Shown in pieces: positions 1,382 through 19,586 of a stretch of 20,683 nt of DNA. A model generated the notes under the pieces. The model ran no database searches and was not told the origin of the DNA. It saw only the letters and a program-made list of their open reading frames with translations. The position numbers were made by a program, and so were the translations under genes. The DNA lies in IMG/VR virus record IMGVR_UViG_3300017708_001362, positions 1 through 20,683 of that record; one strand, written 5' to 3'. Within the stretch, counting starts at the first letter, position 1; every line of letters starts with the position of its first letter. Source of the DNA: a virus.

Positions 1382-2824
1382 TTACGATGCCACACACTGG
1401 AGATCAAGCGAAGTATCGAATCTGCGGAGCAGGATACCAGCCGTCTTCAACATGTGTACAGATGCACCGTCTATGTCACTAGCGCGGGTGTCAGTTTCTG
1501 CAAAGCCTTTTGGCACAACAGAACCAGCAACACACCAGCGCAACATTTCACGACCCTTCTTATTGATCATCTGGAGATTGTTTTCTCCGTCGTAAGAAGA
1601 CTGGTCGACAAACGTCATTCTGTAAGATTCCAGCGGCAAGCCAGTCTCAGGGTGCTTACGAGAAGCCTGAGCAACAGGACCGTGGTCAAACAAAGGAACT
1701 TTAACTACGTTCACGCGGTGACCATCAATGTGGTCGTATGACGTGAAGTAACCAGTGATACCCAAGCTACGACCGCTACCGGTAATGAACTTAGATTCAG
1801 TAGTCTGGAGGTAGTTAGAAGTTCCACCACCTGCAGTTGCACTGCCGTAGTAGTTACGCAAAGCTCTGTCGAACTCACGTGCACCACCAATACCAGTAAA
1901 GAGAGTAACCTGCTTGTCTGTAGCATCAGTCATGCCGTAGAACAAGTCACCGATAGTGTTCTCAATCTTCTTCTGGGTCAACGTAGAGTAGGTGTCCTTG
2001 TTGATAATCTGCTCAAACAGACCAGGACCAGCAAGAACTGGTTGACCGTTTTCATCGAGCATATTATTTTGGCCGTCAGTTCCGTAAGTCTTCTGACCGT
2101 ACCAGTAGTACATCTCACACTCTTCTTTAAACTTGAGCATGTGACGGTACTCCTCATAGTCCATCCACAATTTTGTGCTAGAACCTTCTTTCAAAGGAAG
2201 CTCAAATTGTGCAACATAGTCCTTAGCATTACCAGACATGTGGTAAGACTTACGTACTGTTCCGATCTTAGAACGTACGAGTCCTGGTGCTGTCCAGTTA
2301 GATGCGTTACCTCTAGAGAAATCAATTCCTACAGAAGCAAACAGCATTCCGAAGAGCGCGCCAGAAGCAACGTCTGCAGCAGGCATGCTAGCTTGGTCGG
2401 GAGAGACTAGTTTCAAAGTGTACTCGTATCCACCAGAAACAGGTTGTGGCTCAGCCATGATACGCGCGAGCACACCAGATTGAGACACGAGAGTGTATGG
2501 GAATATAAAGAACTTGTCTGGGAAGACTACCTTGAAGAGTTGTCCATTAGCACCTTGATTACCGCTTACAGTGGTAACAACGGGACGAACATTCACTTCG
2601 TGAGTTTTTACACGGTACTCATACTCGAAGCGGTCAATAGAGCGAGTGTTACCCACACCTTCCGTCATGAAAGACAGGGGGAACTTCTTCTCTTCTCGGC
2701 CTGCGAGGTGAGTAATAATTGGGGAGAGCTCTTCGGGCTTCTCCATAAGCGCATTGACCAACGAGTTTGTGTCGGTCATCTGCTGGTCGTTGTAGTACGT
2801 TTTCAGTACTTGTGTTAGAGCCAT
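1382..2824 (-). CDS. Major capsid protein
   Basis: A 480-residue protein begins MALTQVLKTYYNDQQMTDTN. Its size, position (scaffold-like gene just upstream, head and ring genes just downstream) and overall character (long beta-rich domain, few cysteines, no signal peptide) fit an HK97-fold major capsid protein of the crAss-like/Bacteroidota podovirus type. HK97-fold capsids have no catalytic motif to verify, so the call rests on order, size and general resemblance. Start ATG 2824 lies 24 bases after the scaffold stop and is preceded by an AT-rich spacer without a Shine-Dalgarno sequence, as is usual for Bacteroidota. It should be the most abundant virion protein, and a GC-rich hairpin follows its stop. 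Confidence 0.8.
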   Translation of the reverse strand: MALTQVLKTYYNDQQMTDTNSLVNALMEKPEELSPIITHLAGREEKKFPLSFMTEGVGNTRSIDRFEYEYRVKTHEVNVRPVVTTVSGNQGANGQLFKVVFPDKFFIFPYTLVSQSGVLARIMAEPQPVSGGYEYTLKLVSPDQASMPAADVASGALFGMLFASVGIDFSRGNASNWTAPGLVRSKIGTVRKSYHMSGNAKDYVAQFELPLKEGSSTKLWMDYEEYRHMLKFKEECEMYYWYGQKTYGTDGQNNMLDENGQPVLAGPGLFEQIINKDTYSTLTQKKIENTIGDLFYGMTDATDKQVTLFTGIGGAREFDRALRNYYGSATAGGGTSNYLQTTESKFITGSGRSLGITGYFTSYDHIDGHRVNVVKVPLFDHGPVAQASRKHPETGLPLESYRMTFVDQSSYDGENNLQMINKKGREMLRWCVAGSVVPKGFAETDTRASDIDGASVHMLKTAGILLRRFDTSLDLQCVAS

Positions 2825-4011: not shown

Positions 4012-6030
4012 TCACTTCCGTAATCTGAAGTATTTTCTCATTGGTCCTCCTCGGCGTCTTTGTCTTCTCTCAAAGTAGTTAGGTCTGTCTTCTAAAAACA
4101 TGTAGTTGCGCAAGTTATCCTGCTCAAGTCCTCTCATGCTTTCTCTAAACTCTTCTCTTGCTGCCTGCTCATCCGGTCTTCTGTTGTGTCCTCTATACCA
4201 AAGAGTTTCTATATCTGTTTCCCCCGCCCCATATGCCATCCCAGGTGCAGGTCCTTCGATAAGATCTCCCATAAATAGCATGTCCTGTTGTTCTCTAGAA
4301 AGAGTATCTGCTCTAGACGTTCCAGAACTGTCTTGAAGATCAGTTATAAATTGTGGTGTCTCTAGACCCATATAACTGGAAATACTATCTACTCTATTTG
4401 CAGCAGTTAGCGTAGAAGGCTGGTCATACATGTACATTCCTCTTCCTACTCCTTGTCCTCCTCTATTTGTAATCTGAATTGCATTTGGCTGCATTCTTTG
4501 ATGCGGCCCAGTTTCATGATATGCAATAGTATCTCTTACTGCATGTGGTTGTAGTATTCCCTGTCTGTGCTCAGACACTAGATCTAATGCAGTTAAGTTG
4601 AGGGTATCCCCAAACTGGTCGGGCCCATATTGCTCCCCAATCCACTCCATTGTGTCTTCAAATCTAGGACCCGGTTGTTGGGGCTGTGGTCTTGTAGCTT
4701 GAGCTGTATTAGGGGGAGTTGCAGGAACAACAATTCCATCAGGTCCTTGCTGTGGAAAAGTGCCTCCTGTCTGCATTTTTCTAGGTACGTACTGCAGTTG
4801 ATTCTCTCCAAAATATCCTGTGGGATTAGCTATCATCTTGCGCTCAGGACTAAGCATCTGAGACATGAACTCTAGCTTAACTGTAGGGTGCTCTTTGGAC
4901 TTAAGTAGCATCCCAGTTTTATGGTCTACTGAAGGATAGTGACCTGTGGCGTCAGGCTTGTAGCCGAGCTCTTGGGCTCTAGCCATGTTGTAGTTGCCGC
5001 CTGACTGCTTTTGTTCTATAGGCCGTCCTGTTTCAGGATTATAGTAGATTCTTCCGTACAGTTCGGGTGCCCTTACCCCAGCCAGAGCCTGAGCTGCACT
5101 GCTTATTGCCGTTGCAACTTTGCCTGTAAACGGGTCAAAGTCGTACTCATCATAATAAGAAAGGTAGCTTCCCTGGTCACCTTCTCCCTTGGTAACTGTG
5201 TAGTTACCCAAAACATTATCATTCACTCCGGCATGGTATCCTACTCGTCCTGCATGGTCCTCTATATATTTTAGTGGATCTTTACTTTGACTTAGTTCTT
5301 GTCTTAGATTTTTTTCTGTTACAGGAGATCTGAAATACTCTGCGTCAGGATTTTTTGCATTAGTGGGCTTGTACTCAGCTGCAGGTAAGTCATCACTTTG
5401 TCCCATAGCATAAGCAAGGAGATTTTTCCTTTCTTCCAAGCTGTCTCTGTCAATGGCACCACTTGCTCGGCTACCAGGCTCCGGCTCGTTTTTTATTACA
5501 GTATCATAAATTCTTTTTGCAGGCACCTTGTTTAGAGACTCAGCTACATATCCTGATGGGAACACATTGTCGGCTATTCTTTGCTTAGTCTGGTTAATAA
5601 ACATCTTTGGGACTTGAAGGGCTCCTCCTAACTGCATATTAGCAGGAGTCTCAATAACTGTCCCGCGTTGAGGGCCGGTGGGGAGACTCTGTACACCTGG
5701 GGGAACGTTATCGTATGACTTGACTAAGTGTCCCTGCTCATCGAACTTCTTGATATCGATTGGGGCCTTCATGCCCATCGTATTGAATGGAGTGTTAGGA
5801 GGGACATTAGGGAATGCCATACTTTGATTAACGTTCCCCGCTTGGTGCGCAGGTCTCAATCCTTGCTGTTGTTGTTGAGGAGTACGAGCAACTTGCATAT
5901 TATTTTGCTGCTCAAATTGCCCAAGTAGGTCAATACCCATGTCGTACGCCTTGAAGACATCTAGAATGGAGCCTGGATACCCAGACTGTCTGTGTCTCAT
6001 TAACAACTGTCTTCTTGTAGCGTTATCCAT
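4012..6030 (-). CDS. Large virion-associated (probably internal) protein between portal and scaffold
   Basis: A 672-residue protein starts with TAATG overlap to the portal stop (6032-6028), so the two are probably translationally coupled. It opens with a helix (MDNATRRQLLMRHRQSGYPG), has a glutamine/proline-rich linker (about 42-85), then a central domain (about 270-320) containing the aromatic/acidic string SYYDEYDFDPFTGK followed by LYGRIYYNPETG. A second Q/P-rich linker (about 420-455), an acidic-polar region and a very basic C-terminus follow. I associate the central string with virion proteins of Bacteroidota podoviruses but cannot name a function. Alternating linkers and folded segments suit an internal or ejected protein. 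Motifs MQ-x-GG occur twice (near residues 132 and 419). Confidence 0.6.
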   Translation of the reverse strand: MDNATRRQLLMRHRQSGYPGSILDVFKAYDMGIDLLGQFEQQNNMQVARTPQQQQQGLRPAHQAGNVNQSMAFPNVPPNTPFNTMGMKAPIDIKKFDEQGHLVKSYDNVPPGVQSLPTGPQRGTVIETPANMQLGGALQVPKMFINQTKQRIADNVFPSGYVAESLNKVPAKRIYDTVIKNEPEPGSRASGAIDRDSLEERKNLLAYAMGQSDDLPAAEYKPTNAKNPDAEYFRSPVTEKNLRQELSQSKDPLKYIEDHAGRVGYHAGVNDNVLGNYTVTKGEGDQGSYLSYYDEYDFDPFTGKVATAISSAAQALAGVRAPELYGRIYYNPETGRPIEQKQSGGNYNMARAQELGYKPDATGHYPSVDHKTGMLLKSKEHPTVKLEFMSQMLSPERKMIANPTGYFGENQLQYVPRKMQTGGTFPQQGPDGIVVPATPPNTAQATRPQPQQPGPRFEDTMEWIGEQYGPDQFGDTLNLTALDLVSEHRQGILQPHAVRDTIAYHETGPHQRMQPNAIQITNRGGQGVGRGMYMYDQPSTLTAANRVDSISSYMGLETPQFITDLQDSSGTSRADTLSREQQDMLFMGDLIEGPAPGMAYGAGETDIETLWYRGHNRRPDEQAAREEFRESMRGLEQDNLRNYMFLEDRPNYFERRQRRRGGPMRKYFRLRK

Positions 6031-8252
6031 TACTCGCCGTTAGGTTCGAGGTCGCCTTCTTTATCTAATGCTTCGCGCTTCAGGTCGACCTCCTTCAACT
6101 TGATGTCATAGTCTTGTACCACCTTCTGCAGGTCTATGTCCAACCTATTAGCTTGGTCTTTAGCCTCTGCATTGATGAGCGCAATCTCTATATCCTTCTG
6201 CCTATCTCTATCTTTCTCTTGCGCTTCTTGTTGCATCTTTGCCTGATCCATTTGCATCTGCTGTTGCGCCTGTTGTTGTTGAGCCTGCTGCTGTGCAGCT
6301 TCAAGCTCCTCGCGTGCAGCTTCTGCTTTTCTAAGTTTCTCTTTAATCCCAGTAAAGTTTTCTGTGTCGAGTAACTCCAAAACTGCAGATGCAGGCATTC
6401 CGTTTTGTAACATAGCTTGAGACAGCTCGCGTGCTTGTCTGATGTTTTCTTGGTCCCTGCCTGCGTCAGACATAAAGATGCCGTATTCACTTTCCATGTG
6501 CCCAAGAGAGTCAAGGTCTAAGTATTGCATAGACGTATCGGGGAGGACGTACATTCCCTTCTTCCCAGATATCCAAGCTTCCTTAGAGTAATCAAGCATA
6601 CCCTGCAACTCCCTTTGCTCAAAGCGAGAGAACTTACGGAACAGGTCTTCAGTAATGTGAGACGACTGTACTATTGCTTGTTGGGATGCCCCCTTGCCCT
6701 CGTATGCACCGATGCTACCCTGACGTTGTCTGTTGACGCCAGAGATTTTTTCCCACTCTTGCATGGTGGTCTCAAGCAAGAGAACGTATTGTTCTATTGT
6801 CTTGATAGACATGTCCAGTACAGACTGATGCTGCGGTGAAAGCTGAATACCTTCTTTGTTGTAGTCGACCCAAGCAATACCTGTGCCCTCTACGTAGTAC
6901 ATGAACTTATCGAGATCCCACTTCTTAGGAATCATATTGATGTCGAACTGTGCGATGATATCCTTACTACGTGCAATTGCAAGCTCCATACGGTACTTGA
7001 ATATGTTGTAGTTAATCTGGAATGGGATACCCAAGGACACCAACGAGATGTTGCTGGAGTTGATATCAGAATACTTGAACCCGTTGATTGGGAGCTTACA
7101 TACAGACGGGTTGTCGATAGAAGTACGTTGATTAGCGACAGGAGACATCTTCACGTAGAATCTACCGTCAATCTTAGTTCCTTCCCATACTTCGTTAACC
7201 CACTCATACTTGATCTTAGCTCCCATCTCCTTCATCTCGGCAGATAGTTTGTAGCCTTCCTCTACCTCAAACTCCTCAATCATCCCAGTCTGGTTGTCTT
7301 GATAAGACACAAAGCCTATACGCTTACGGCTCTTCCAGTACACAGTTACAACTTCTACGAGTCTGTTTCTATAGATATTGTCGTCCGTCCCCGTAGCCTC
7401 TGACCTGTAAAGCAGATATGTATCTACTGATTGATGCTTGGGGTCTTCTAGTTGGAGGACTTGTTCTTCAGTGAGGTAGTCTCCGAAGTGATCGACGACA
7501 GTAGCTGCGTGCGAGTAGCGTCGAACTATTGCCCAGTCCCCGTCCTCAACAAACTCCACATCTGGATCTTTGTCAAAGTCGATGTCAATAGGATTGATTA
7601 CATCATAGAATGGCTCGGCTCTGCGAACACCTTTGTGTGAGTACGTTTCCCCAGATACCAAGAAGTGGAAGAACTGCTTCTGGAACTTATCGTACATCTC
7701 TTGCTCATACATGATGTAGTTCATCGCTGCCTGTCCTTTGATGGCGCGGTCATCTACGTATGTACGTTCGAATTGTTCAGCAACTTGCTTAGGGAGTAGA
7801 GGCGCTTGTTGCTGTGCCTGTTGTGACTGGAGATCTTTGGGTTCTGCTATCTCTTGCAGAAACATAGACTCTACTGCCTTTTTAATCTGGTCTGTCTTTG
7901 CCTGTTGCTTCAGGCTAATGCTGTCCGCATTTTTTACAGTCACACTATAATTGAGAGGTCTTTTGGACTTCTCCCCCAGCAGCAGATCAATGATCGGCTT
8001 GATGATAGGGTAGTTTCTCAGCTTCGACGGGAAGTTCTCTCGACTCTTTCCGTATGGTTTGATTACATATCTGTAGTCAGTCTCATCGACTTCTCCGTTA
8101 TAATAGTCATATAGTGCTTTCAGATTGCCGCGTCTTTCGCTCAATCCGAACTTAGATATATTGATGAAGGCGTCTACACATTCCTCTCTCCACTTCTTAG
8201 TCTTCTTATTTAACGGTAGTCTTTGCTGCGGTATTTTTGCTGCTCCGTACAT
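6030..8252 (-). CDS. Portal protein
   Basis: A 740-residue portal follows TerL, as is standard. The N-terminal part (about 20-110) has ERRGNLKALYDYYNG, then REN-FPSKLRNYPIIKPIID and LLLGEKSKRP, which match the start of crAss-like and related Bacteroidota phage portals. A long alpha/beta body follows, then a glutamine-rich coiled coil over roughly the last 110 residues and an acidic end. I chose ATG 8252 rather than an in-frame codon at 8315: 8252 lies 19 bases after the TerL stop, follows an AT-rich spacer, and the extra 21 residues of the longer form look like read-through of TerL sequence. The portal forms the dodecameric DNA channel and packaging motor dock. It overlaps the next gene as TAATG. 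Confidence 0.85.
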   Translation of the reverse strand: MYGAAKIPQQRLPLNKKTKKWREECVDAFINISKFGLSERRGNLKALYDYYNGEVDETDYRYVIKPYGKSRENFPSKLRNYPIIKPIIDLLLGEKSKRPLNYSVTVKNADSISLKQQAKTDQIKKAVESMFLQEIAEPKDLQSQQAQQQAPLLPKQVAEQFERTYVDDRAIKGQAAMNYIMYEQEMYDKFQKQFFHFLVSGETYSHKGVRRAEPFYDVINPIDIDFDKDPDVEFVEDGDWAIVRRYSHAATVVDHFGDYLTEEQVLQLEDPKHQSVDTYLLYRSEATGTDDNIYRNRLVEVVTVYWKSRKRIGFVSYQDNQTGMIEEFEVEEGYKLSAEMKEMGAKIKYEWVNEVWEGTKIDGRFYVKMSPVANQRTSIDNPSVCKLPINGFKYSDINSSNISLVSLGIPFQINYNIFKYRMELAIARSKDIIAQFDINMIPKKWDLDKFMYYVEGTGIAWVDYNKEGIQLSPQHQSVLDMSIKTIEQYVLLLETTMQEWEKISGVNRQRQGSIGAYEGKGASQQAIVQSSHITEDLFRKFSRFEQRELQGMLDYSKEAWISGKKGMYVLPDTSMQYLDLDSLGHMESEYGIFMSDAGRDQENIRQARELSQAMLQNGMPASAVLELLDTENFTGIKEKLRKAEAAREELEAAQQQAQQQQAQQQMQMDQAKMQQEAQEKDRDRQKDIEIALINAEAKDQANRLDIDLQKVVQDYDIKLKEVDLKREALDKEGDLEPNGE

Positions 8253-8271
8253 TCTTGTAAAAGTATAAAAT

Positions 8272-10233
8272 TTATTGATAGTTCCGATCGAACCACTCGT
8301 TCTGGGACATATCATTGATGGTTTCTACGACCTCTTTATTATATAGCTCTCTGGTGTGATACATGCCCACCATAAATGCCATAACACGGTCGAAGTTACC
8401 CTTATGGTTAAATTTAATTAATTCTTGTAATAATCCAACGTCATAAATCTCATGCAAGTTAAGCCTTATGTTCCCATCTTCGTCACTACTTCTTGGAGAT
8501 ATTAACCAGTCCCTTATATAAAGCTCTCCTTGACGCTTGCGTTGTTCAGTCATGTGCATCCCGTATTGACGTCGTACGTTCCTGCTGCGCAGCTCTTTCT
8601 TATCTAGCATCTCAAACTCTTCCTGCAGCTTATGTAGCTTGCGGTAACGCTTAGCGTACGCTATCAACTCTCCCCGATCATTCTCAAATCCAATCTTTGC
8701 ATTGTAGTAGTCGGCTAGCATGAACAGGTTTCTGTTGTATTCATCCTGTGTCTGCGGCCTGCCTACATAACTGGCTACAATCATATCGTCTGGTTTGGAC
8801 AGATTGTTGGGACGTTTGATTACATACGCAGCACCGAGCGACTGGTTGCTTGTAGACTTGCTCTGCGCATATGGGTCATGGCAGATGACGTACAAGTTGT
8901 GCGGTGTATTCCCATCCTGTGTCTTCCAGGGATTCTGGTAGATAACTACACCCCCAGTTAAGTCGTCATCTTTTCTGTGCGGGAACTTTGTGATAGGTTT
9001 GATTGATGGGTCAGGTCGGAAGTCTACCTGTTCTCCGCTGTGGTATAGCACCCCCGCTGTGCCCTCTTTCTCAAGATTGTGTGCTTTGACACGATTGTAT
9101 TGTTCCTTGAGCGACGTGACATCGAATACGTTGATTGTTGTTTGTAGCGTCGCTTCTTGTGGGGTGAACGGGTGCTCTGCCACGTACTGATCAAGTGCCT
9201 TGGCGTCGTTAGCCTTCTTTTTATTGACTCTAGCAGCCTCTTCAAACTCTTTTGCATCTTCAATTAGTGAATTACCGTGTTCATCCATGAACCCATCTAG
9301 GTTCTGGTAAATAGGGACGAAGTATCCGCAGGTTGTACCTATTGCGCCTGCATCCCATTCGTTATCAAACGACATACAGTTGTAGGCTTCGGGGTGATAA
9401 AACAGCTCTTCTAGTGATGCGAAGCCATGCCCTTCTTCACCACCTGTACCAAAGGCTATCATAGTACCTAAGGTCTTAGACCCCTGTTTCATTGTAGGCA
9501 TAGCTATCTCCCATGCAGTCAATAGGCCTGAGAACGAGCCTGCTTCCTCGAAGAAGATGAGTTCCCCTGCCTTACCACGTACTTTGTGTGGATTGTCTTT
9601 AAGTGACACTCCAATAATCTGGGACTTCATGCCCAGTGCTACGTCAGTTCCATTGACACGTTTCTTGTACCCAGCCTGTTTGTGCATCTCCTTGTCGATC
9701 AGACGAGGTTGTGTCCATGCTGTGTTGTCATCTACGAATGAGATAAAGTCCCAGGTTTTACTTAGCAATCCGTCCCCAGTTAGGTACTCTTTCTGCTCTG
9801 CAAACACGAAGTTCTTTGAGTTGCGGATGTGGAAGTAGTTTCGGGCTAGCATTGACCCTGCTTTATAGGAATATCCCTTACGTCTGGCCTTGAGCACAGA
9901 CATATGCTTGTTTTCCTTGCGGCATCGGTCTACTGCGTGGTAATATTCGTAGTCTCCGTCGTAGAATGCAGGAAATGTCCGTTCTCTGCGGGCTTGAACC
10001 GTCCCATCTGGGAGAACTTCGTCAATTGCGCGGTCAATTGGGCAATAGTTAAGGTAGAAGTAGTGATATCCTGTAATTCGGACTCCGTCAAGCTCATATC
10101 CGTACAAACATCTGTTGCGTTCTGTGTCCCAGAAGTCGTAATACTCTTTTGTTCCTGCAAGTGCGTCTGTATAGTAGCCTTGTCTTAGGAATGCAGTGGC
10201 TGCAGGAGAGAACCTCTCTGTATTCTTAAACAT
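8272..10233 (-). CDS. terL: Terminase large subunit
   Basis: This 653-residue ATPase/nuclease packages DNA into the procapsid. Visible motifs are a Walker A-like KARRKGYSYKAG at 115-126 (an atypical P-loop, as in crAss-like terminases), Walker B ELIFFEEAG at 224-232 with catalytic Glu, and a coupling motif FGTGGE at 261-266. Nuclease acidic residues are D453 (in VICHDPYA), E517/D519 (in FENDRG) and the Asp of FDRVMAF near 625. The N-terminal RITGYHYFYLNYCPID string also fits crAss-like terminases. The start overlaps the preceding gene as TAATG (10235-10231). Full length with all motifs present, so it is probably active. Confidence 0.93.
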   Translation of the reverse strand: MFKNTERFSPAATAFLRQGYYTDALAGTKEYYDFWDTERNRCLYGYELDGVRITGYHYFYLNYCPIDRAIDEVLPDGTVQARRERTFPAFYDGDYEYYHAVDRCRKENKHMSVLKARRKGYSYKAGSMLARNYFHIRNSKNFVFAEQKEYLTGDGLLSKTWDFISFVDDNTAWTQPRLIDKEMHKQAGYKKRVNGTDVALGMKSQIIGVSLKDNPHKVRGKAGELIFFEEAGSFSGLLTAWEIAMPTMKQGSKTLGTMIAFGTGGEEGHGFASLEELFYHPEAYNCMSFDNEWDAGAIGTTCGYFVPIYQNLDGFMDEHGNSLIEDAKEFEEAARVNKKKANDAKALDQYVAEHPFTPQEATLQTTINVFDVTSLKEQYNRVKAHNLEKEGTAGVLYHSGEQVDFRPDPSIKPITKFPHRKDDDLTGGVVIYQNPWKTQDGNTPHNLYVICHDPYAQSKSTSNQSLGAAYVIKRPNNLSKPDDMIVASYVGRPQTQDEYNRNLFMLADYYNAKIGFENDRGELIAYAKRYRKLHKLQEEFEMLDKKELRSRNVRRQYGMHMTEQRKRQGELYIRDWLISPRSSDEDGNIRLNLHEIYDVGLLQELIKFNHKGNFDRVMAFMVGMYHTRELYNKEVVETINDMSQNEWFDRNYQ

Positions 10234-12533: not shown

Positions 12534-14237
12534 GTGAAAAGATATATCCTCCTTCTGTTTTTCTACGTGTCTTCTATCCCCGCTCAGTGTGATTTGGAGA
12601 TACTTAGTTTTGACCCCGAAGCAGCCCTCATAACTGTAGCGTTTAATAATACTACAAACTGTGGTGGTGCGTCTGGTCCTAATGGGGTGGCCGAAATTCA
12701 GTTTGGGTTTCAGGCTTTAGACAGCGATTGCAATGCAATGAATCAGGGGTGGGATTTCCCCTGGGGTTTGAGCACGCCGGATGAAAGTAATCACCCCGGT
12801 TGGATCTATTCAGCTACTACTACTCTAGATGGGAACAATTGGACTAATCTAGATGTGTGGTCAGACTACAATGTAGATCCTCCGTACTACGCGGGTGATG
12901 TGATTACGTTTCCTCTTGACGACTTCTATCAGTCTAATGGGTCAAGTTTATTTTCTAATCTCTCCAATGCCTTTGACTTTTGGCTAGATCAAGACTTGAG
13001 CATACAAGCGGTAATCTGGCAAATTAGCTACGGTCCTACTATGTATGCTGATGAGGGAGGCTGGGCAGAAGTAGGGAGCCTTGGGGGTGGGGTAACCCCT
13101 CCCTGCTGTGGGATTTATGATGACAGTAACTGGGAGGACAACTGGACAGTAGTAGGTCCTTGTGCAGTCCCCAGCCCGGGGCCTGATGCTGTTGTGTCTA
13201 ACATCGAATTTAATATAGGCTGCATCGGGGATGTGCCTGTGTATAGTTTGGACTACCAAGTAATTAATATGGGGGAGGATACCATCACAGACTACTGCAT
13301 AGAAATCTGGAATGAAGATTATTACCAGTGTTTTGATGGTAATCTATTCGGGGCCTACGAAATACCCCCGGGGGAAGGGCAGTCATTTACTACCCCGTTT
13401 TTCCAATACGAAGGCGGCGGTAATATATTCGTGGTCTCTGTTGATAGCGTGAATGATGGCGATGAAATTATAACGGGGAACAACAATACAACAGTATACT
13501 ACCCGGATTTTCCAACATGCCCTATCGTAGCCGACACTGTCTTTGTTGCAGAATATGACACTACGTATATCGAGCTTCCTCCAGACACTCTTGTTGTGCT
13601 AGAGGTTGACACTCTTGTAATAAATGATACGATCCCTGTCCCAATTAACTGGTACTTCTACGACACAACGTACATCTACGTTACGGACACATTGGTAGAA
13701 TACATTGAGCTCCCGAATGACACTATCACTTTGATAGAATATGATACTACGTATGTAGAGCTGCCCCCTGATACAATCTTTCAGTTAGAGGTTGATACCC
13801 TGTATCTTACACAGACAGACACGATAGTCCAAGAGATTATTGTTGTAGAGTATGTGTACCTTACTGACACTCTTACTGAATATATCTACGAAGAGCTTTG
13901 GATAGACTGCAGTACAGGCCTTCCGTGCGGGGATGAGCCCCCAGGAATTTTAGAATGCTCTGTCTTTGTCCCTAATACATTTACCCCAAACAACGACGGG
14001 AACAACGATAGCTTTTATGCTGTCACTGAGAGTGATTGCTGGGACGAGTGGGAGCTGTCTATCTACAATAGATGGGGTGACCGTATATGGGAAACGCCGT
14101 ACATCAATGAGAGATGGTACGGCCAAGTGCAATTGGGGGAACACTACGCTTCGGACGGAGTGTACGTGTGGGTCATTAAAGCAAAGGGCCCCGGAGAATC
14201 ATTGGACCTCCAGGGCACTGTTACTTTGTTTCGTTAA
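12534..14237 (+). CDS. Secreted surface protein with T9SS type B (gliding-motility-type) C-terminal domain
   Basis: A 567-residue exported protein starting with GTG. An N-terminal signal peptide (KRYILLLFFYVSSIPAQ) is followed by a cysteine-containing beta domain (about 20-210), a CARDB-like domain (about 213-330, SLDYQVINMGEDTITDYC onward), a threonine/aspartate-rich stalk with a 62-residue repeat (about 340-455), and a C-terminal domain (about 474-567) containing VPNTFTPNNDGNND, YNRWGDRIWET and DGVYVWVIKAKG. This last domain is diagnostic for the T9SS type B (CHU_C/gliding-motility-associated) sorting family. The host would export it by Sec and T9SS and probably attach it to the surface. 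It is the only plus-strand gene among the late genes, has its own promoter, and shares its stop with the convergent gene. The role (adhesin, surface shield) is inferred. Confidence 0.9.
   Translation: MKRYILLLFFYVSSIPAQCDLEILSFDPEAALITVAFNNTTNCGGASGPNGVAEIQFGFQALDSDCNAMNQGWDFPWGLSTPDESNHPGWIYSATTTLDGNNWTNLDVWSDYNVDPPYYAGDVITFPLDDFYQSNGSSLFSNLSNAFDFWLDQDLSIQAVIWQISYGPTMYADEGGWAEVGSLGGGVTPPCCGIYDDSNWEDNWTVVGPCAVPSPGPDAVVSNIEFNIGCIGDVPVYSLDYQVINMGEDTITDYCIEIWNEDYYQCFDGNLFGAYEIPPGEGQSFTTPFFQYEGGGNIFVVSVDSVNDGDEIITGNNNTTVYYPDFPTCPIVADTVFVAEYDTTYIELPPDTLVVLEVDTLVINDTIPVPINWYFYDTTYIYVTDTLVEYIELPNDTITLIEYDTTYVELPPDTIFQLEVDTLYLTQTDTIVQEIIVVEYVYLTDTLTEYIYEELWIDCSTGLPCGDEPPGILECSVFVPNTFTPNNDGNNDSFYAVTESDCWDEWELSIYNRWGDRIWETPYINERWYGQVQLGEHYASDGVYVWVIKAKGPGESLDLQGTVTLFR
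13551..13826 (+). repeat. Internal protein repeat (62-residue period) in the stalk of the T9SS type B protein
   Basis: EYDTTYIELPPDT followed by LEVDTL begins at 13551, and EYDTTYVELPPDT followed by LEVDTL begins at 13737, exactly 186 bases later. Between them a half-copy (FYDTTYIYVTDTL, ELPNDT) keeps the same rhythm, and a further partial copy follows. The bases have drifted at third positions, so the repeat is old and selected at the protein level. It suits an extended stalk. Confidence 0.8.
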
Positions 14238-14599
14238 AAGTCTCCCAGTATTATCTCATCTACTGCGTCCTGAACCTCATCTTGGGTCGTCTCCATTGCC
14301 ATCATGATGTTGGCTTGGAATCTTTTGACTTCTTCTCCTTCGTTGAACACCACGATTGTTGGGACCACCACTATTTGGTGTTCCTTCTGCAGGTCGGGGG
14401 CACTCGCAATGTCCACACGATCCGTCGCACAGTCGTTTAGTTTTTCTATCCAAGGCACAGTATTTTGTTGATTAAAGCTGGCGTTAAATTCTACAACGCA
14501 GATTCCTGCGTTACATACTTCCTTATCCTCTTCCACAGATGCCACAAAGAGCATTGTTGAAAACAAGAAAGCAAATACAGTTATTGCAAGGGTCTTCAT
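14234..14599 (-). CDS. Exported thioredoxin-fold protein lacking the CxxC active site
   Basis: A 121-residue protein. An N-terminal signal peptide (MKTLAITVFAFLFSTMLFVA) precedes a thioredoxin-like domain: VVEFNASFNQQN at the position of the usual ...A-W-C-G-P-C, then RVDIASAPDLQKEHQI, VVVPTIVVFNEGEEVKRF with the conserved cis-Pro loop, and a C-terminal helix. The active-site cysteines are replaced by Asn (FNQQN for WCGPC), so it cannot do thiol exchange in the normal way. It is the last gene of the envelope operon and starts six bases after the preceding stop. Its stop is embedded in the TTAA shared with the convergent T9SS gene. A chaperone-like or binding role in the periplasm is inferred. 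Confidence 0.75.
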   Translation of the reverse strand: MKTLAITVFAFLFSTMLFVASVEEDKEVCNAGICVVEFNASFNQQNTVPWIEKLNDCATDRVDIASAPDLQKEHQIVVVPTIVVFNEGEEVKRFQANIMMAMETTQDEVQDAVDEIILGDF

Positions 14600-14605
14600 T
14601 TGGAT

Positions 14606-14890
14606 TCATCTTAGTTGGTCTATTTTTTCTTCAATCCTTTTAATGTCTTCTTTGATCTCAGTGACATCTTGCTGAGTAGACATTATGGTTTGTCGAACTA
14701 GTTGGTCTTTCATGTCAAACTCCATTCGAGTAATTTCTGGATCTGGGGGTATTGGTAGCTTCTTAGCTTCTTCAATATCTGCTTGTAATACAAACCACGC
14801 ACTGATTACAGCAGCCATTACAGCCCCAATACCCACTAGCGTTTTTATGCTTACGTGAAATCCAGTATCCTCATTCAGTTCTTTGGCCAT
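14606..14890 (-). CDS. Small inner-membrane protein with periplasmic coiled coil (spanin-like candidate)
   Basis: A 94-residue protein with a short cytoplasmic N-terminus, one membrane segment (about 15-36, LVGIGAVMAAVISAWFVL), a proline-rich neck (LPIPPDPE), and a C-terminal coiled coil (about 55-94, heptad-like I/L/V with E and K). Topology resembles i-spanins and other lysis accessory proteins. The gene follows the barrel-like protein with a one-base gap (TAA, G, ATG) in the holin operon. I know similar small proteins from marine phage sequences, but their function is not established. A structural or regulatory membrane role is equally possible. Confidence 0.65.
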   Translation of the reverse strand: MAKELNEDTGFHVSIKTLVGIGAVMAAVISAWFVLQADIEEAKKLPIPPDPEITRMEFDMKDQLVRQTIMSTQQDVTEIKEDIKRIEEKIDQLR

Positions 14891-14891
14891 C

Positions 14892-15935
14892 TTAAAGTAA
14901 TATGTAGTTTATTCCAATAGAGAAGTCGTGCCATTCTCTATTCCAGTACTTGTTGTATCTACCTTCAGTAAATACTCCTAAGCTCTTAGTTATTTTTGAC
15001 CCGAACACGAGGCCTGCACCAATGTCTACCCACTGCGTACTGCTGACGAAGTTGTGGTAGGAATATTCATCTCCGTTGTTTAAGTGATAGGGCATCACAT
15101 TTCCCCAGCTGTGTAGCCAGAAGTCTTTGGTGTAGTGGTAGAAGTCAAACCCCACCACAGCAGAGTGCATCCAAATACTTGGGAGCTCTGCTTGCCTAGC
15201 ATCTACATAGTTGTTGAGCACTTGTGGGATTACTACTTGGTCCCATATTGCAGGGTCATCTGCCACTAGCTGTCCGGCAGGATCAAAAAACTCTCCTGTA
15301 TTTACGTCTATACTATAACCCTCTTGTAAGGCTAGGGCAGTATAATGCAGCTGGTTGTTTTCAAGTACCCACTCTTGCAGTGGGTCGTATCCGTAAGGCT
15401 GAGAGATACGCTGGACTATACCTGCATTGATAGAGAACTTACTGCCTAGCTTTACTCTGAGTCGTTGTGATGCTTCAAAGTATTTCACATCAGCAAAGCC
15501 GTCCTGCAAGAACTCTGCTTTAACAAGCCACCAGTCATCTACGTAACGAATAAAATAGTCTTGGTCTAAGAAGTCTTTACCTTGCTGTCGCCTCCAGTCT
15601 GCTTCTGCTAGGAACTCTAGTCCGTTGTACTTACCAACAGTAGCAGCGTCCCCATATGTTTTTTCTGTTCCGTCATAAAATACGTTGGCTCTGTTCTCAT
15701 ATCCAAAGCGTGCAATCTTTCGTACTCCCAGGGTTAGACTGTAGTCAAACGGGGTCTCGATTACTCCTGTCTCTAGTGCTCCGGTACCAACAGAGTAGAC
15801 GTCTTCGTCAGCTACAGAGTTACCGCCGTTGACTGCTGCGTAGAATGTGGCACGGCGGAGTACCTTCTTGTAGAAGTCGCTTTGTCCCCAAGCAATGGCA
15901 GGGGCGAGGAGCAACAATGCTATTAAGTGTCTCAT
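14892..15935 (-). CDS. Exported outer-membrane beta-barrel-like protein
   Basis: A 347-residue protein with a clear signal peptide (MRHLIALLLLAPAIAWGQ, cleavage near 18/19). Alternating aromatic/polar strands run through the mature part (DYSLTLGVRKIARFGYENRA, NGLEFLAEADWRR, DQDYFIRYVDDWWLVKAEFL, HDFSIGINYILL), the look of an outer-membrane barrel ending near the C-terminus. It has few cysteines and no T9SS tail. Similar proteins recur in marine Bacteroidota phage sequences as I remember them, but have no assigned function. It is translationally coupled to the T9SS type A protein (ATGA, 15935-15932). It could alter the host outer membrane, block superinfection or assist lysis; it could also be a virion protein, though the signal peptide argues against that. 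Confidence 0.75.
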   Translation of the reverse strand: MRHLIALLLLAPAIAWGQSDFYKKVLRRATFYAAVNGGNSVADEDVYSVGTGALETGVIETPFDYSLTLGVRKIARFGYENRANVFYDGTEKTYGDAATVGKYNGLEFLAEADWRRQQGKDFLDQDYFIRYVDDWWLVKAEFLQDGFADVKYFEASQRLRVKLGSKFSINAGIVQRISQPYGYDPLQEWVLENNQLHYTALALQEGYSIDVNTGEFFDPAGQLVADDPAIWDQVVIPQVLNNYVDARQAELPSIWMHSAVVGFDFYHYTKDFWLHSWGNVMPYHLNNGDEYSYHNFVSSTQWVDIGAGLVFGSKITKSLGVFTEGRYNKYWNREWHDFSIGINYILL

Positions 15936-18007
15936 TCTTTTATGATTGTTTGTTTGACGATATAACCGTTGTAGTTAACCATCACTACATACATTCCTGC
16001 AGTCGGTAAGTTAATCACATTATTTGTTGTAGTGATTAATTCTTGCCCTAAATAGTTGTATATTGTAGTAACCGCAACATCAGGCGTTTGTATCTTTATC
16101 TCCCCCCTGGTTGGGTTTGGGTATACTTTGATTACTCGACTCAGTGTTGGTACACTTGTCAAGCCGTCTTGGCAGTACCCGTACATCTCCATGCACACAT
16201 CGTCCCACCCGGTGTTACAGCAGTAGGGGTCGACACTAATAACCCATGAGTAACATTGGTCGTTTGCCCAGTACGGATCGCCGGGCTCCCCGATACACCC
16301 TGCGTCATATAAACAGGACTCGTTATCAGGGGTGTTTGCGTCCTCGTCGTAGTTAAACGCGTCGATATCTGTACACCCAACAACTACTGGGATGCAGCCA
16401 CTGTTATCTACGTTGGCCTCAGGGTCGTAGTTAAGTGCAGTTTCGTCTGTGCACCCAAACACGGCTAACGTTACACAAGAGCCGTCATCAAAGTCAGCTT
16501 CGTATCCCTGCGTGTAGTATTCTAAGTAGCCAGCTTGCATACATCCCGCAGCGTAGTAGCAGCTCCCGTCCTCAGTGTTGGCCTCCGCGTCGTAGTTCTG
16601 GGCTTCTGCATCTAGACACCCATAGGCATAAGGTATGCAACTAGTCCCGCAGTAAGGGGTGAACTTATATATATTCCACTCGGGCTGTGCAAACGGTTGA
16701 AGGGCACCCTGCCCGTTATCAGAGAATGGGTTATCACCCTCTACGAGTAACGTGTCCCCTGCTTCGTTGGTTATGATGATTGCGTTGTGCAGGGTTTGGA
16801 ACTCTGTCTCTTGCGGTGGTTGTTGCGGGCTCCCAATCTCAAAGTAGTATACCTCTACTTCTTCGTCAGAGTCTAACACTAAGTCCCATGATTGTTCAAA
16901 CTCGTTTGGTCCAACTGTAAAGATCCACTGCAGCTCTCCTTGTCTTATCCCTACGTGTGAGTTACCCCACCCGTCACCGGCGTCGTCTTCAAGCGTAATG
17001 GTTGTGAGACATGGACTATTAAGGTCTGAGATAGTAGCTGTACTATCGTAGTTAAATGCTGACTCGTCCATGCAGCCCCAGGTGTGTAGTGTAAGGCAAT
17101 CGTCAGGTTCAGTAGCTTCAGGATTGTAGTCGACGTAATCGTCATCCATACACCCTACTATTGGGGGCTCTACTGGACAGGGCTCTACAAATACAGCACC
17201 TGAGTATGCTACTGTTCCGTCCCCGTCTGAGAAGTCTATGTCTTCTAGTTCCCAAACTACAGAGTCGTTACAAGCTGTGACAACTACTGCTCCGTCAGCA
17301 AATCCCCCACTGGCTGTCCCGCTTAGTCCGTCCCCATATGTATCAGTGAGGATTAGTTCGAAGCCTAGTGCTACGCAGAAGTCGTAGGTGTAAGTAGACA
17401 GCTGGTCCCCAAAGTTGAACTCACCTGGGAGGATCTGTTCGTAGAATTCTCCCACTGCTAAGTCAACTAGTGTGAAGCCTGTCTCGTTTGGCCAGTTATC
17501 TAGCGTGAGCTCCATAGATACAAACGCCTCCCCTTCGGGACATGCACTAACGTTGCAACTACCATTGTCTACTGTGGCCCATGGGTTGTAGTTGTTGGAG
17601 GACTCATCCATACACCCAGGGATTGGGAGGGCGCATGTCTCTAGGGTAAATGGGATTGTTAGTTGGCTTTCTTCAAAGTCGTATACTACTGTGTCTAGGC
17701 CGCAAGTATTCTCCAACCCAAACCACCCATCCCCGTATTGGCAGCATATCCCATCCCCAAACTCGTCGTAGATAATGAACTCGTAGTCTCCTTCCGGGAG
17801 CATTATCATATTGTTGTAGAGGGAGTTGCCTGTGTATCCCCCGGGTGGGGATTGTACTATAACTGCGGGGCCTGCTGGGAGGTTAGGGTCTACTATCTCC
17901 CAACTTGTTTCTCCCCCGTATTGGTCAGTTTGTATCGTTACTCTTACCCAGCTTTGTCCCAGGGCGAGCGTTGGGATGAGCAAGAGCAGTGCCAGTAAGG
18001 ATCTCAT
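15932..18007 (-). CDS. Secreted repeat protein with T9SS type A C-terminal sorting domain
   Basis: A 691-residue exported protein. It has a signal peptide (MRSLLALLLLIPTLALGQ), then beta domains with D-x-x-G-D-G loops (DEFGDGICC near 81, DTYGDGLSG near 222, DDAGDGWGN near 341). Seven cysteine-bounded repeats of the pattern GC-[MTL]-D...NY...A...C lie near 131, 285, 311, 463, 489, 518 and 544. A cysteine-rich module (DPYCC...WDDVC...C, about 570-612) is followed by a T9SS type A tail (623-691: VYPNPTRGEIKI ... YNYLGQE ... GMYVVMVNYNG ... KQTIIKE). The modules are typical of secreted marine flavobacterial proteins, and the tail directs T9SS export and surface attachment. It lies between the holin and a barrel gene with ATGA couplings at both ends, so it is co-expressed with lysis functions. 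The exact role is unknown. Confidence 0.9.
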   Translation of the reverse strand: MRSLLALLLLIPTLALGQSWVRVTIQTDQYGGETSWEIVDPNLPAGPAVIVQSPPGGYTGNSLYNNMIMLPEGDYEFIIYDEFGDGICCQYGDGWFGLENTCGLDTVVYDFEESQLTIPFTLETCALPIPGCMDESSNNYNPWATVDNGSCNVSACPEGEAFVSMELTLDNWPNETGFTLVDLAVGEFYEQILPGEFNFGDQLSTYTYDFCVALGFELILTDTYGDGLSGTASGGFADGAVVVTACNDSVVWELEDIDFSDGDGTVAYSGAVFVEPCPVEPPIVGCMDDDYVDYNPEATEPDDCLTLHTWGCMDESAFNYDSTATISDLNSPCLTTITLEDDAGDGWGNSHVGIRQGELQWIFTVGPNEFEQSWDLVLDSDEEVEVYYFEIGSPQQPPQETEFQTLHNAIIITNEAGDTLLVEGDNPFSDNGQGALQPFAQPEWNIYKFTPYCGTSCIPYAYGCLDAEAQNYDAEANTEDGSCYYAAGCMQAGYLEYYTQGYEADFDDGSCVTLAVFGCTDETALNYDPEANVDNSGCIPVVVGCTDIDAFNYDEDANTPDNESCLYDAGCIGEPGDPYWANDQCYSWVISVDPYCCNTGWDDVCMEMYGYCQDGLTSVPTLSRVIKVYPNPTRGEIKIQTPDVAVTTIYNYLGQELITTTNNVINLPTAGMYVVMVNYNGYIVKQTIIKE

Positions 18008-18435
18008 TTCTTGGTCTTTTCAATGGTTCTCCCTGCGAAGTATGCACCAAAAGAAGTGAGCATCAAGATCTGCAACAAGTCAATGTAGCTATCCTTAACG
18101 TTAAATGGCCAGTTGTCCATGCTGTCAAAGATCATTGTCAAGCAGAACATGCCCATAAGGGCAATGAGGGTGAGGGGGCGGATAAGCTTTGCAAGCTTTA
18201 CATCGCTCCCCATGTCTGCCTTCCAACGTTCTGTTACGTTCTCTTGGAACTTGACCTCTGCATCTATTTTGGCTTGGGCTTCTGCCGGGTCTATACCGGG
18301 CTCTTTGTCTAGGAGATTCTTTACAAGTCCGAGCGCTCCTTGGTCAGGGAGAAGGTCTCCTACGGTCCCAAGAACATTCGGAGCTTTCTCCTTTAACCAA
18401 GCGCCTAACTTGGTCTCTTTAATCTTCTTACTCAT
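18004..18435 (-). CDS. 3TM-type phage holin
   Basis: A 143-residue protein from ATG 18435. A basic/helical N-terminal half (MSKKIKETKLGAWLKEKAPN; DPAEAQAKIDAEVKF; ERWKADM) precedes hydrophobic segments IRPLTLIALMGMFCLTMIF and IDLLQILMLTSFGAYFAG, joined by DSMDNWPFNVKDSYI. This is the layout of the GTA/3TM holin family. Holins open the inner membrane at the time of lysis. A longer frame using TTG 18477 exists, but that codon lies within the promoter -7 box, so 18435 is preferred. It is the first gene of the five-gene envelope operon and overlaps the next gene's start as ATGA. Confidence 0.75.
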   Translation of the reverse strand: MSKKIKETKLGAWLKEKAPNVLGTVGDLLPDQGALGLVKNLLDKEPGIDPAEAQAKIDAEVKFQENVTERWKADMGSDVKLAKLIRPLTLIALMGMFCLTMIFDSMDNWPFNVKDSYIDLLQILMLTSFGAYFAGRTIEKTKK

Positions 18436-18474: not shown

Positions 18475-18482
18475 CAAACATA
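18475..18482 (-). promoter_or_regulatory. -7 box (TATGTTTG) of the holin/envelope operon promoter
   Basis: The minus strand reads TATGTTTG, an exact TAnnTTTG, with TTTA about 22 bases upstream as a weak -33 element. It leaves a leader of about 30-40 bases before ATG 18435 and supports that start. It would drive the holin, T9SS type A, barrel, coiled-coil and thioredoxin-like genes together. Confidence 0.5.
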
Positions 18483-18552
18483 ATTATCCCCCTTGGGATT
18501 TTCTTAAACGACACATTTCCACTCGGCGTATTGAGCCTAACGTCCGGGGGAG

Positions 18553-18681
18553 TTACTTATTACCTTGGTTCCCAGACCCGAGTTTTATAGTGTCGCACTT
18601 TGCACAGCTATTGGGGACAACCTCACCGCTATCGTTGCCTGTTATCTCAAGGCTGCAGTTACTAACCCAACTTCTGACCCC
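18553..18681 (-). other. Ambiguous 42-codon open frame in the 299-base gap between holin and small basic gene
   Basis: The gap 18436-18734 holds no convincing gene. One minus-strand frame (18681-18553, TAA stop) reads NCSLEITGNDSG then SCAKCDTIKLGSGNQGNK, which looks protein-like with a C-x2-C pair, but it has no ATG, GTG or TTG start and is closed upstream by two consecutive TAG codons. The antisense frame (plus, TTG 18565 to about 18768) is also open, codon-aligned with it, and overlaps the 43-codon gene. Either could be a remnant or an artefact of base composition. The holin promoter lies at the left end of this gap. Confidence 0.25.
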
Positions 18682-18734
18682 CTACTAATTATCCTCGGGG
18701 GTGATCAACTTACGTTGGCTGTTAACTTAGTTGC

Positions 18735-18866
18735 TTATCGTCCTTGGCCTTTGTATGCCTTCTTGTAATTCTTTGACGCCTTGTGTTTGCTCGTCTTACT
18801 CTTTGCGTGTACGCCGGGTCGAGAGACACTTTTTGCTGTCCGTTCGACTAGTTTGACTTTTGCCAT
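18735..18866 (-). CDS. Very small basic protein (43 residues)
   Basis: A 44-codon frame begins with ATG 18866 and ends with TAA 18737-18735. The product is strongly basic, about 14 lysines or arginines (MAKVKLVERTAKSVSRPGV, then HAKSKTSKHKASKNYKKAYK and GQGR). There is no hydrophobic segment, and it is probably disordered or nucleic-acid binding. Similar tiny Lys-rich proteins ending in a GQGR-like tail occur in Bacteroidota phages in my memory, without known function. An exact TAGCTTTG promoter box lies four bases before the ATG, which strongly supports expression and suggests a leaderless transcript. It may be a DNA-compaction or host-takeover peptide. Confidence 0.7.
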   Translation of the reverse strand: MAKVKLVERTAKSVSRPGVHAKSKTSKHKASKNYKKAYKGQGR

Positions 18867-19319: not shown

Positions 19320-19586
19320 ATGGAACACATTGCTCCTTACCAAGTGGACTTGCTTAAGTCCTTTGCTGTAGTTACCAGACACACAGCACTCATCAATGAC
19401 AGAGATCTTCGGATTGCTGTCAGTCACCGTGTGGAAGAAGCACCACACAATGGCACGTATGGATTCCTCGCAGCAAGCGATGACGTCCAAGAACTTACTG
19501 AGCGGGAAGGAGTTTCCCTGCACAATAAGATGACTTTGTATACTGTTCGTGACGCACTCAAGCGTATTCATGAACAGCTTAACTAA
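19320..19586 (+). CDS. Small rightward gene product of unknown function (88 residues)
   Basis: An 88-residue protein, MEHIAPYQVDLLKSFAVVTR then HTALINDRDLRIAVSHR and a C-terminal helix (LYTVRDALKRIHEQLN). It is mixed helix/strand, soluble, with no cysteine or membrane segment. No family is recognised. Start ATG 19320 follows a perfect palindrome and the three-way-junction leader, so expression is probably controlled by both. The stop codon (19584-19586) overlaps the 5' strand of a tRNA-like acceptor helix beginning at 19585, so RNA processing there would trim the mRNA right at the stop. Confidence 0.6.
   Translation: MEHIAPYQVDLLKSFAVVTRHTALINDRDLRIAVSHRVEEAPHNGTYGFLAASDDVQELTEREGVSLHNKMTLYTVRDALKRIHEQLN

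Follow-up and report, generated by a model that had tools for sequence, protein, structure and literature searches.

The viral record IMGVR_UViG_3300017708_001362 of IMG/VR, whose 20,683 bases we refer to as the window, carries a gene cassette built around cargo proteins with C-terminal sorting tails of the type IX secretion system (T9SS). Our best reading, which we put at about an even chance, is that this is an accessory late cassette that uses the host T9SS to export variable cargo and so remodels the surface of the infected cell, and we consider it very probable that the cargo is exported by the host T9SS. The initial annotation described one cargo protein of each sorting class, which holds for the window itself but not as a rule, as most cassettes carry a type A protein only.

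Two T9SS cargo proteins in a crAss-like phage

The type A cargo (691 amino acids; 15932..18007, minus strand) consists of a signal peptide (residues 1-18), a Cys-rich passenger, and a sorting domain (residues 626-691). Its tail, annotated as type A from the outset, matches the full TIGR04183 profile (1-72) over residues 628-691 and scores 28.9 bits where the cut-off is 23 (E 8.3e-7), which places the sorting domain at 15935..16126 on the minus strand. With Pfam PF18962, it scores 20.9 bits, under the cut-off of 27. Residues 624-691 of the AlphaFold model have the Ig-like seven-strand fold of T9SS C-terminal domains (CTDs) and match the RgpB CTD (5ag8) with Z 9.8 and 1.6 A over 64 residues; the same stretch resembles the translocon-bound CTDs of RemA, RemZ, FspA, and NucA, and gives Z 8.1-8.7 against structures 8glj, 8glk, and 8gl6. 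In the 34-member alignment of homologs, the TIGR04183 tail was detected in 32 (E <= 0.01). The N-terminal signal peptide is also kept across homologs, as judged by inspection of the sequence and alignment, with the cleavage sites of the two cargos at MRSLLALLLLIPTLALGQ^ and VKRYILLLFFYVSSIPAQ^.

The passenger of the type A protein contains 30 Cys residues, is strongly acidic (K+R 10 vs D+E 114), and carries repeats of the form GC(M/T)D..A.NY(N/D)P.A. As the model is weak overall (predicted template modeling score, pTM, 0.29) and its structure matches are dominated by the sorting domain, a fold assignment for the passenger was dropped; the stretch 161-274 gave a CBM60-like match that is weak and within the chance level (Z 6.2). 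The Cys repeats recur in large open reading frames (ORFs) without signal peptides in distant crAss-like relatives, with structural genes nearby (L327:666-5192, L328:6745-11934, and L330:6306-10727). In the near relative G005, they are absent from all other ORFs except one in its type B gene, and the idea that cargo and virion fibers share binding repeats as a general rule was dropped because the structural ORFs of G005 lack them.

The type B cargo (567 amino acids, GTG start; 12534..14237, plus strand) begins with a signal peptide that, by inspection, is likewise kept across homologs, so that both signal peptides first reported were found again. It is followed by an N-terminal domain (about 19-210), a second domain (about 211-330), DT..YVELPPDT stalk repeats (about 331-455), and a CHU_C/type B sorting domain (about 478-552). 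The type B assignment is upheld by a strong match to CHU_C (PF13585; 60.7 bits vs a cut-off of 27, E 1.5e-16), and TIGR04131 falls slightly under its cut-off (32.6 bits vs 35, E 6.8e-8); all members of the 28-member homolog alignment match both profiles (E <= 0.01). TIGRFAM-type and Pfam profile searches found no catalytic domain in either cargo, and when solved structures were searched by sequence, neither the type B alignment nor that of the barrel protein described below gave a match. Type B proteins commonly, though not universally, have a cognate PorP/SprF gene directly downstream, and no such ORF adjoins the type B gene in the window. The PorP/SprF profile (TIGR03519) had no match in the window record or in 34 other phage records, in a search whose own controls were silent, yet the same model matched in the metagenome-assembled genomes (MAGs) G045 and G046. 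As no PorP-family gene was found in these 35 phage records, either a host shuttle or the phage's own barrel must serve the type B protein.

Both cargo genes belong to a phage. The window encodes a crAss-type major capsid protein (1382..2824, minus strand; PF23898, E 3e-78), a portal protein (6030..8315, minus strand; phrog_6547, E 3.6e-123), and a terminase large subunit (8272..10233, minus strand; phrog_6681, E 1.2e-129), and, based on these matches, which make up the Crassvirales gene set, we assign it to a crAss-like phage. Its terminase shares 42% identity with the closest deposited ones, which come from uncultured gut phages; the best match is that of Suoliviridae phage cr114_1, which makes Suoliviridae the nearest deposited family. 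Of the phage genes originally placed within 6 kb, terminase and portal do lie at that distance from the type B gene, whereas the capsid gene is 9.7 kb from the type B gene and 13 kb from the type A gene. This linkage is real and recurs in independently assembled relatives with the same layout, therefore the window is neither a chimera nor host chromosome, and host contamination as a source of the cargo was rejected on the same recurrent architecture.

Searches of IMG/VR for relatives gave 74 loci with the type A protein, 67 with the type B protein, 80 retained loci with the terminase, and 580 matches with the barrel, of which 80 were retained. In a panel of 50 records, which were partly picked by the cargo itself and whose counts are not prevalence estimates, TIGR04183 was found in 21 (E <= 0.01), 17 of these above the cut-off, and CHU_C above its cut-off in 9. 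Seven deposited Bacteroidota phages gave no TIGR04183 match and a single CHU_C match below the threshold, which, together with the homolog matches above, speaks against a chance finding.

An exchangeable cassette in the lysis region

Reading from the holin, the cassette comprises the type A cargo, a 347-residue barrel, a 94-residue membrane protein, and a 121-residue thioredoxin-like protein, followed by the convergent type B gene and a DUF5675 gene. The holin (18004..18435, minus strand; phrog_3427, E 2.3e-22) is the upstream neighbor of the cargo and the first gene of the late operon, and holin adjacency is also seen in a second phage lineage. At the other end, the DUF5675 protein (PF18925; 12010..12480, minus strand) is replaced in relative L216 by an Amidase_2 protein (PF01510), suggesting that DUF5675 is probably a peptidoglycan-active enzyme and that the slot lies inside the lysis region. 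In relative L159 (G005, 78.6 kb), the cassette heads the late gene block. The unit is thus an accessory, late-placed module, with its expression timing read from position.

The outer-membrane beta-barrel protein (14892..15935, minus strand) has a signal peptide and was recognized from its structural model, its 580 IMG/VR relatives, and its linkage to the type A cargo. Twelve long strands are predicted in a model of moderate confidence (predicted local distance difference test, pLDDT, 70.8), whose best fold matches among those listed are the 12-stranded porins KdgM, Tsx, and NanC (Z about 14). PorV and PorP families are not among the 50 fold matches listed, which says nothing against families outside that list. 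On sequence, the barrel was rejected as a relative of PorP/SprF (hhalign probability 2%, no Pfam match above the cut-off) and of PorV (hhalign probability 0.4% vs four PorV-family proteins).

When loci were picked by the barrel alone, a type A cargo adjoined it in 79 of 80; the remaining locus (L286) ends 352 bp upstream of the barrel, with the cargo just past that point on the same contig (L037). Among the 147 barrel loci from all routes, the only exceptions to this linkage are four truncated loci and L169, the one non-truncated locus without a type A gene, which has a type B gene instead. In a distant crAss-like clade, the neighbor of the barrel is a signal-peptide protein whose tail is beyond the reach of the profiles but ends in a recognizable type A pattern. 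We find it fairly probable that the barrel is a functional partner of the cargo.

The cassette is present in at least two phage lineages whose terminases align at 21-28%. The crAss-like carriers include the window, L145, L152, L159, L014, and L015, and elemovirus-like carriers include L004, L007, L008, L012, L019, L038, L042, and others, with MW202828 (49%) and Flavobacterium phage elemoE (42%) as the nearest deposited phages of the latter lineage. Larger records of 119-156 kb (L296, L301, and L309) also carry the barrel and match neither lineage's terminase well. Barrel identity between the crAss-like L015 and the elemovirus-like L007, L008, and L012 is 82-84%, vs 79-81% between L015 and the window. 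As barrel identities cross lineages despite such distant terminases, sequence comparison indicates that the cassette moves between unrelated phage lineages.

A second level of exchange is apparent within the type A cargo. Between the window and L145, the terminase (98%), holin (95%), and barrel (93%) are nearly identical, and terminase, holin, barrel, and DUF5675 together range from 92 to 98%. Within the cargo, the signal peptide (94%) and residues 571-691 (93-95%) are equally conserved, whereas residues 19-570 share only 37-55%; therefore, the cargo body was exchanged while the signal peptide and the sorting tail on either side of it stayed fixed. The ratio of nonsynonymous to synonymous substitution rates (dN/dS) is 0.03-0.11 for every cassette gene computable between near relatives and 0.29 for the swapped cargo. 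In L004, a second T9SS cargo lies between the type A gene and the barrel (L004:12013-13248); it matches the type B protein of the window at 33%, yet has a type A tail, which suggests tail exchange between sorting classes.

The slot itself can hold other contents. In relatives at 79-91% terminase identity, the interval from the same holin to DUF5675 holds a signal-peptide M43 metallopeptidase, which may or may not be accompanied by the membrane and thioredoxin-like genes (PF05572, E 3e-12 to 7e-20 in the tested L167, L170, L212, and L216), and ORFs of this kind also occur in L207, L210, L215, and L222. The slot holds only the M43 protein in L170, L216, and L222 and only a type B gene in L148 and L149 (95% terminase identity). 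This metallopeptidase likely acts on the envelope or surface. The M43 genes (L167:5234-6394, L170:2431-3621, L212:5701-6885, and L216:2325-3473) also gave weak dockerin-like matches.

The 94-residue protein (14606..14890, minus strand; mean column identity 73% in its alignment) has, by inspection, one N-terminal transmembrane segment and a C-terminal coiled-coil-like helix. The 121-residue protein (14234..14599, minus strand) is an exported thioredoxin-like protein without a CxxC motif, recognized from sub-threshold thioredoxin matches and its alignment. Cys57 is present in all of its homologs and Cys34 in nearly all, and its gene is found with the T9SS cassette as well as with the M43 version of the slot.

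Directly upstream of the holin, at the start of the late gene block, the window has a strongly conserved non-coding stretch of about 300 bases (18481-18790, minus strand) that resembles a structured RNA. Its consensus has 53 pairs, 16 of them with changes on both sides, and 96.4% of cells are paired vs 38-43% when the alignment is slid; its covariation score is 0.289 vs 0.142 for shuffles and 0.03-0.08 when slid. The element is recognizable as far as the distant relatives L181 and L175 and has no match in Rfam. A sigma-70 scan gave no excess over shuffles, the Bacteroidota -7 box TANNTTTG gave no excess over chance, and TATATTTG upstream of DUF5675 is too weak to be claimed as a promoter. A small ORF lies on the far side of the divergent region (19320-19586, plus strand), and a similar protein begins contig L149.

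Proposed surface remodeling and its alternatives

From these observations, we infer how export in vivo could proceed. The signal-peptide proteins would cross the inner membrane via Sec, and the host T9SS would then carry the cargo, addressed by its C-terminal sorting domain, across the outer membrane, with host PorV expected as the shuttle for type A and a host PorP/SprF-like protein for type B. The phage's own barrel would serve as cargo partner or anchor, and the membrane protein and the thioredoxin-fold protein may assist. Late in infection, the cell would carry a phage-made layer or adhesin, whose most likely use would be to block or alter adsorption, either as superinfection exclusion or by preventing progeny from attaching again to the cells that produced them and to debris. 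Surface exclusion or receptor change fits the hypervariable cargo bodies, the presence or absence of the cassette in close relatives, its movement between lineages, and its replacement by a secreted peptidase, and we rate adsorption blocking as the purpose at a little less than an even chance. Going further, the barrel could be a new T9SS accessory, a dedicated outer-membrane receptor or anchor that captures swappable cargo via the constant tail and builds a phage-specified coat, so that surface exclusion is traded between lineages. This extension we hold to be rather doubtful; if true, it would represent a surface-exclusion system delivered by a secretion system, with a barrel unrelated in sequence to PorV and PorP/SprF.

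Host evidence is consistent with such a route. Three bacterial records hold the barrel, and two of these are Bacteroidota MAGs (Sphingobacteriales and Flavobacteriales) that also encode PorV, PorP-family proteins, and many TIGR04183 proteins, in agreement with a T9SS-bearing host. Several points weigh against remodeling of the surface. The phage contigs in these MAGs may be binning artefacts, the cassette was not found in any deposited phage, profile comparisons with PorV and PorP/SprF show no resemblance of the barrel to a known shuttle, and no known binding or exclusion domain was identified in the passenger. In addition, the position between the holin and the probable endolysin suits a role in lysis equally well.

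That last point leads to the chief rival, a lysis module in which the cassette helps disrupt the outer membrane, with the 94-residue protein acting as a spanin-like inner-membrane component and the barrel, cargo, or M43 protein weakening the outer membrane or surface layer. The spanin-like topology of the small protein, the adjacency to the holin in both lineages, the Amidase_2 endolysin of L216 in the DUF5675 place, and the ability of a secreted metallopeptidase to fill the slot are all in keeping with this idea. However, no cassette gene is universal, as the M43-only and type B-only relatives illustrate, and therefore this is not an essential lysis function; moreover, a passenger swap at a constant tail is unexpected for a lysis protein, and periplasmic lysis proteins have no need of a T9SS tail. 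We regard a lysis module as possible but improbable. Alternatively, the cargo could benefit the host or its ecology, as exported adhesins or enzymes that alter attachment, aggregation, grazing, or polymer use, as proposed for the endoglucanase and GH39 cargo of Cryophage. Cryophage cargo does consist of glycoside hydrolases and a PA14 protein (PMC7468147), and T9SS substrates of types A and B frequently function as adhesins or enzymes (PMC12618676), but the profile searches found no catalytic domain in our two cargos, the CBM60-like passenger match, otherwise in favor of this reading, is within chance level, and a fitness gain is less obvious for phages with no integration genes in view, which makes this explanation unlikely.

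The remaining explanations fare worse. If the cargo were a virion fiber or decoration protein with CHU_C and Por domains as structural modules, the Cys repeats in the large ORFs of L327, L328, and L330 near structural genes would be accounted for, but the signal peptides of cargo and barrel, the strict linkage to an outer-membrane barrel, and the near absence of these repeats elsewhere in G005 make a virion role very unlikely. Mis-assembled host genes, or passive cargo without function, are barely credible: the domain types do resemble those of host T9SS proteins, yet the same architecture is found across many independent contigs and several phage lineages, and dN/dS is far below 1.

Relation to known systems

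Phage use of the T9SS was initially taken to be an undescribed strategy, but phage-encoded T9SS cargo has been reported for Cryophage, where superinfection exclusion was already suggested (Bellas et al. 2020, PMC7468147), and de Jonge et al. 2019 (PMC6949934) noted T9SS sorting-domain proteins beside the head genes of BACON-bearing gut phage contigs. As in our case, Cryophage is a Bacteroidota phage whose type A-tailed genes are hypervariable between near-identical phages, a pattern that the cargo of the window repeats against L145. Cryophage cargo comprises an endoglucanase, a GH39 protein, and a PA14 protein, and the available portion of the text makes no mention of type B cargo, a partner barrel, a multi-gene cassette, or a location in the lysis region. 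The contigs of de Jonge et al. also derive from Bacteroidota phages with sorting-domain proteins by the head genes, and one BACON ORF had a tail, but they were mentioned in passing, and class, partner gene, and function were not worked out (PMC6949934).

Type A domains are collected by PorV and the proteins are then anchored or released, whereas type B domains need specific PorP/SprF shuttles, and the sorting domain alone sets the destination (PMC12618676); PorP-like barrels retain type B proteins at the cell surface (PMC9143113). The closest cellular parallel is SprB-SprF of Flavobacterium johnsoniae, in which a cargo gene also lies beside an outer-membrane beta-barrel that handles or anchors the cargo (PMC12618676, PMC9143113). 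The phage barrel differs in that it accompanies type A cargo, no sequence similarity to PorP/SprF or PorV could be detected, and 12 strands are predicted rather than the 14 of the FadL-type shuttle barrels. A search of open-licence articles in PubMed Central found no report of type B cargo in phages, of a conserved cassette that includes an outer-membrane partner, of its transfer from lineage to lineage, or of passengers being swapped while the tail stays constant. Phage T9SS cargo as such is known from Cryophage, and, within the literature searched, the type B cargo, the cassette, the partner barrel, the swap, and the movement appear to be new.

The lambda Lom/Bor-type morons are accessory genes as well; they lie near lysis or tail genes, are directed at the envelope, and alter the surface of the infected cell. 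The cassette shares with them its accessory nature, its orientation toward the envelope, and its location. These morons use ordinary outer-membrane targeting, and none is known to be sent out by a dedicated secretion system.

If our reading is correct, phages of a major bacterial phylum have co-opted a host protein-export machine to deliver surface proteins of their own. The design would be modular, with a constant tag, a swappable body, and a partner barrel, and it would be shared by hundreds of uncultivated phages. Direct tests in Flavobacterium johnsoniae are made possible by the tails, the barrel, and the exchange of the cassette for an M43 peptidase. The cassette would offer a concrete way into the question of how Bacteroidota phages deal with superinfection and with the outer surface, and it may expose an unknown class of T9SS partners.

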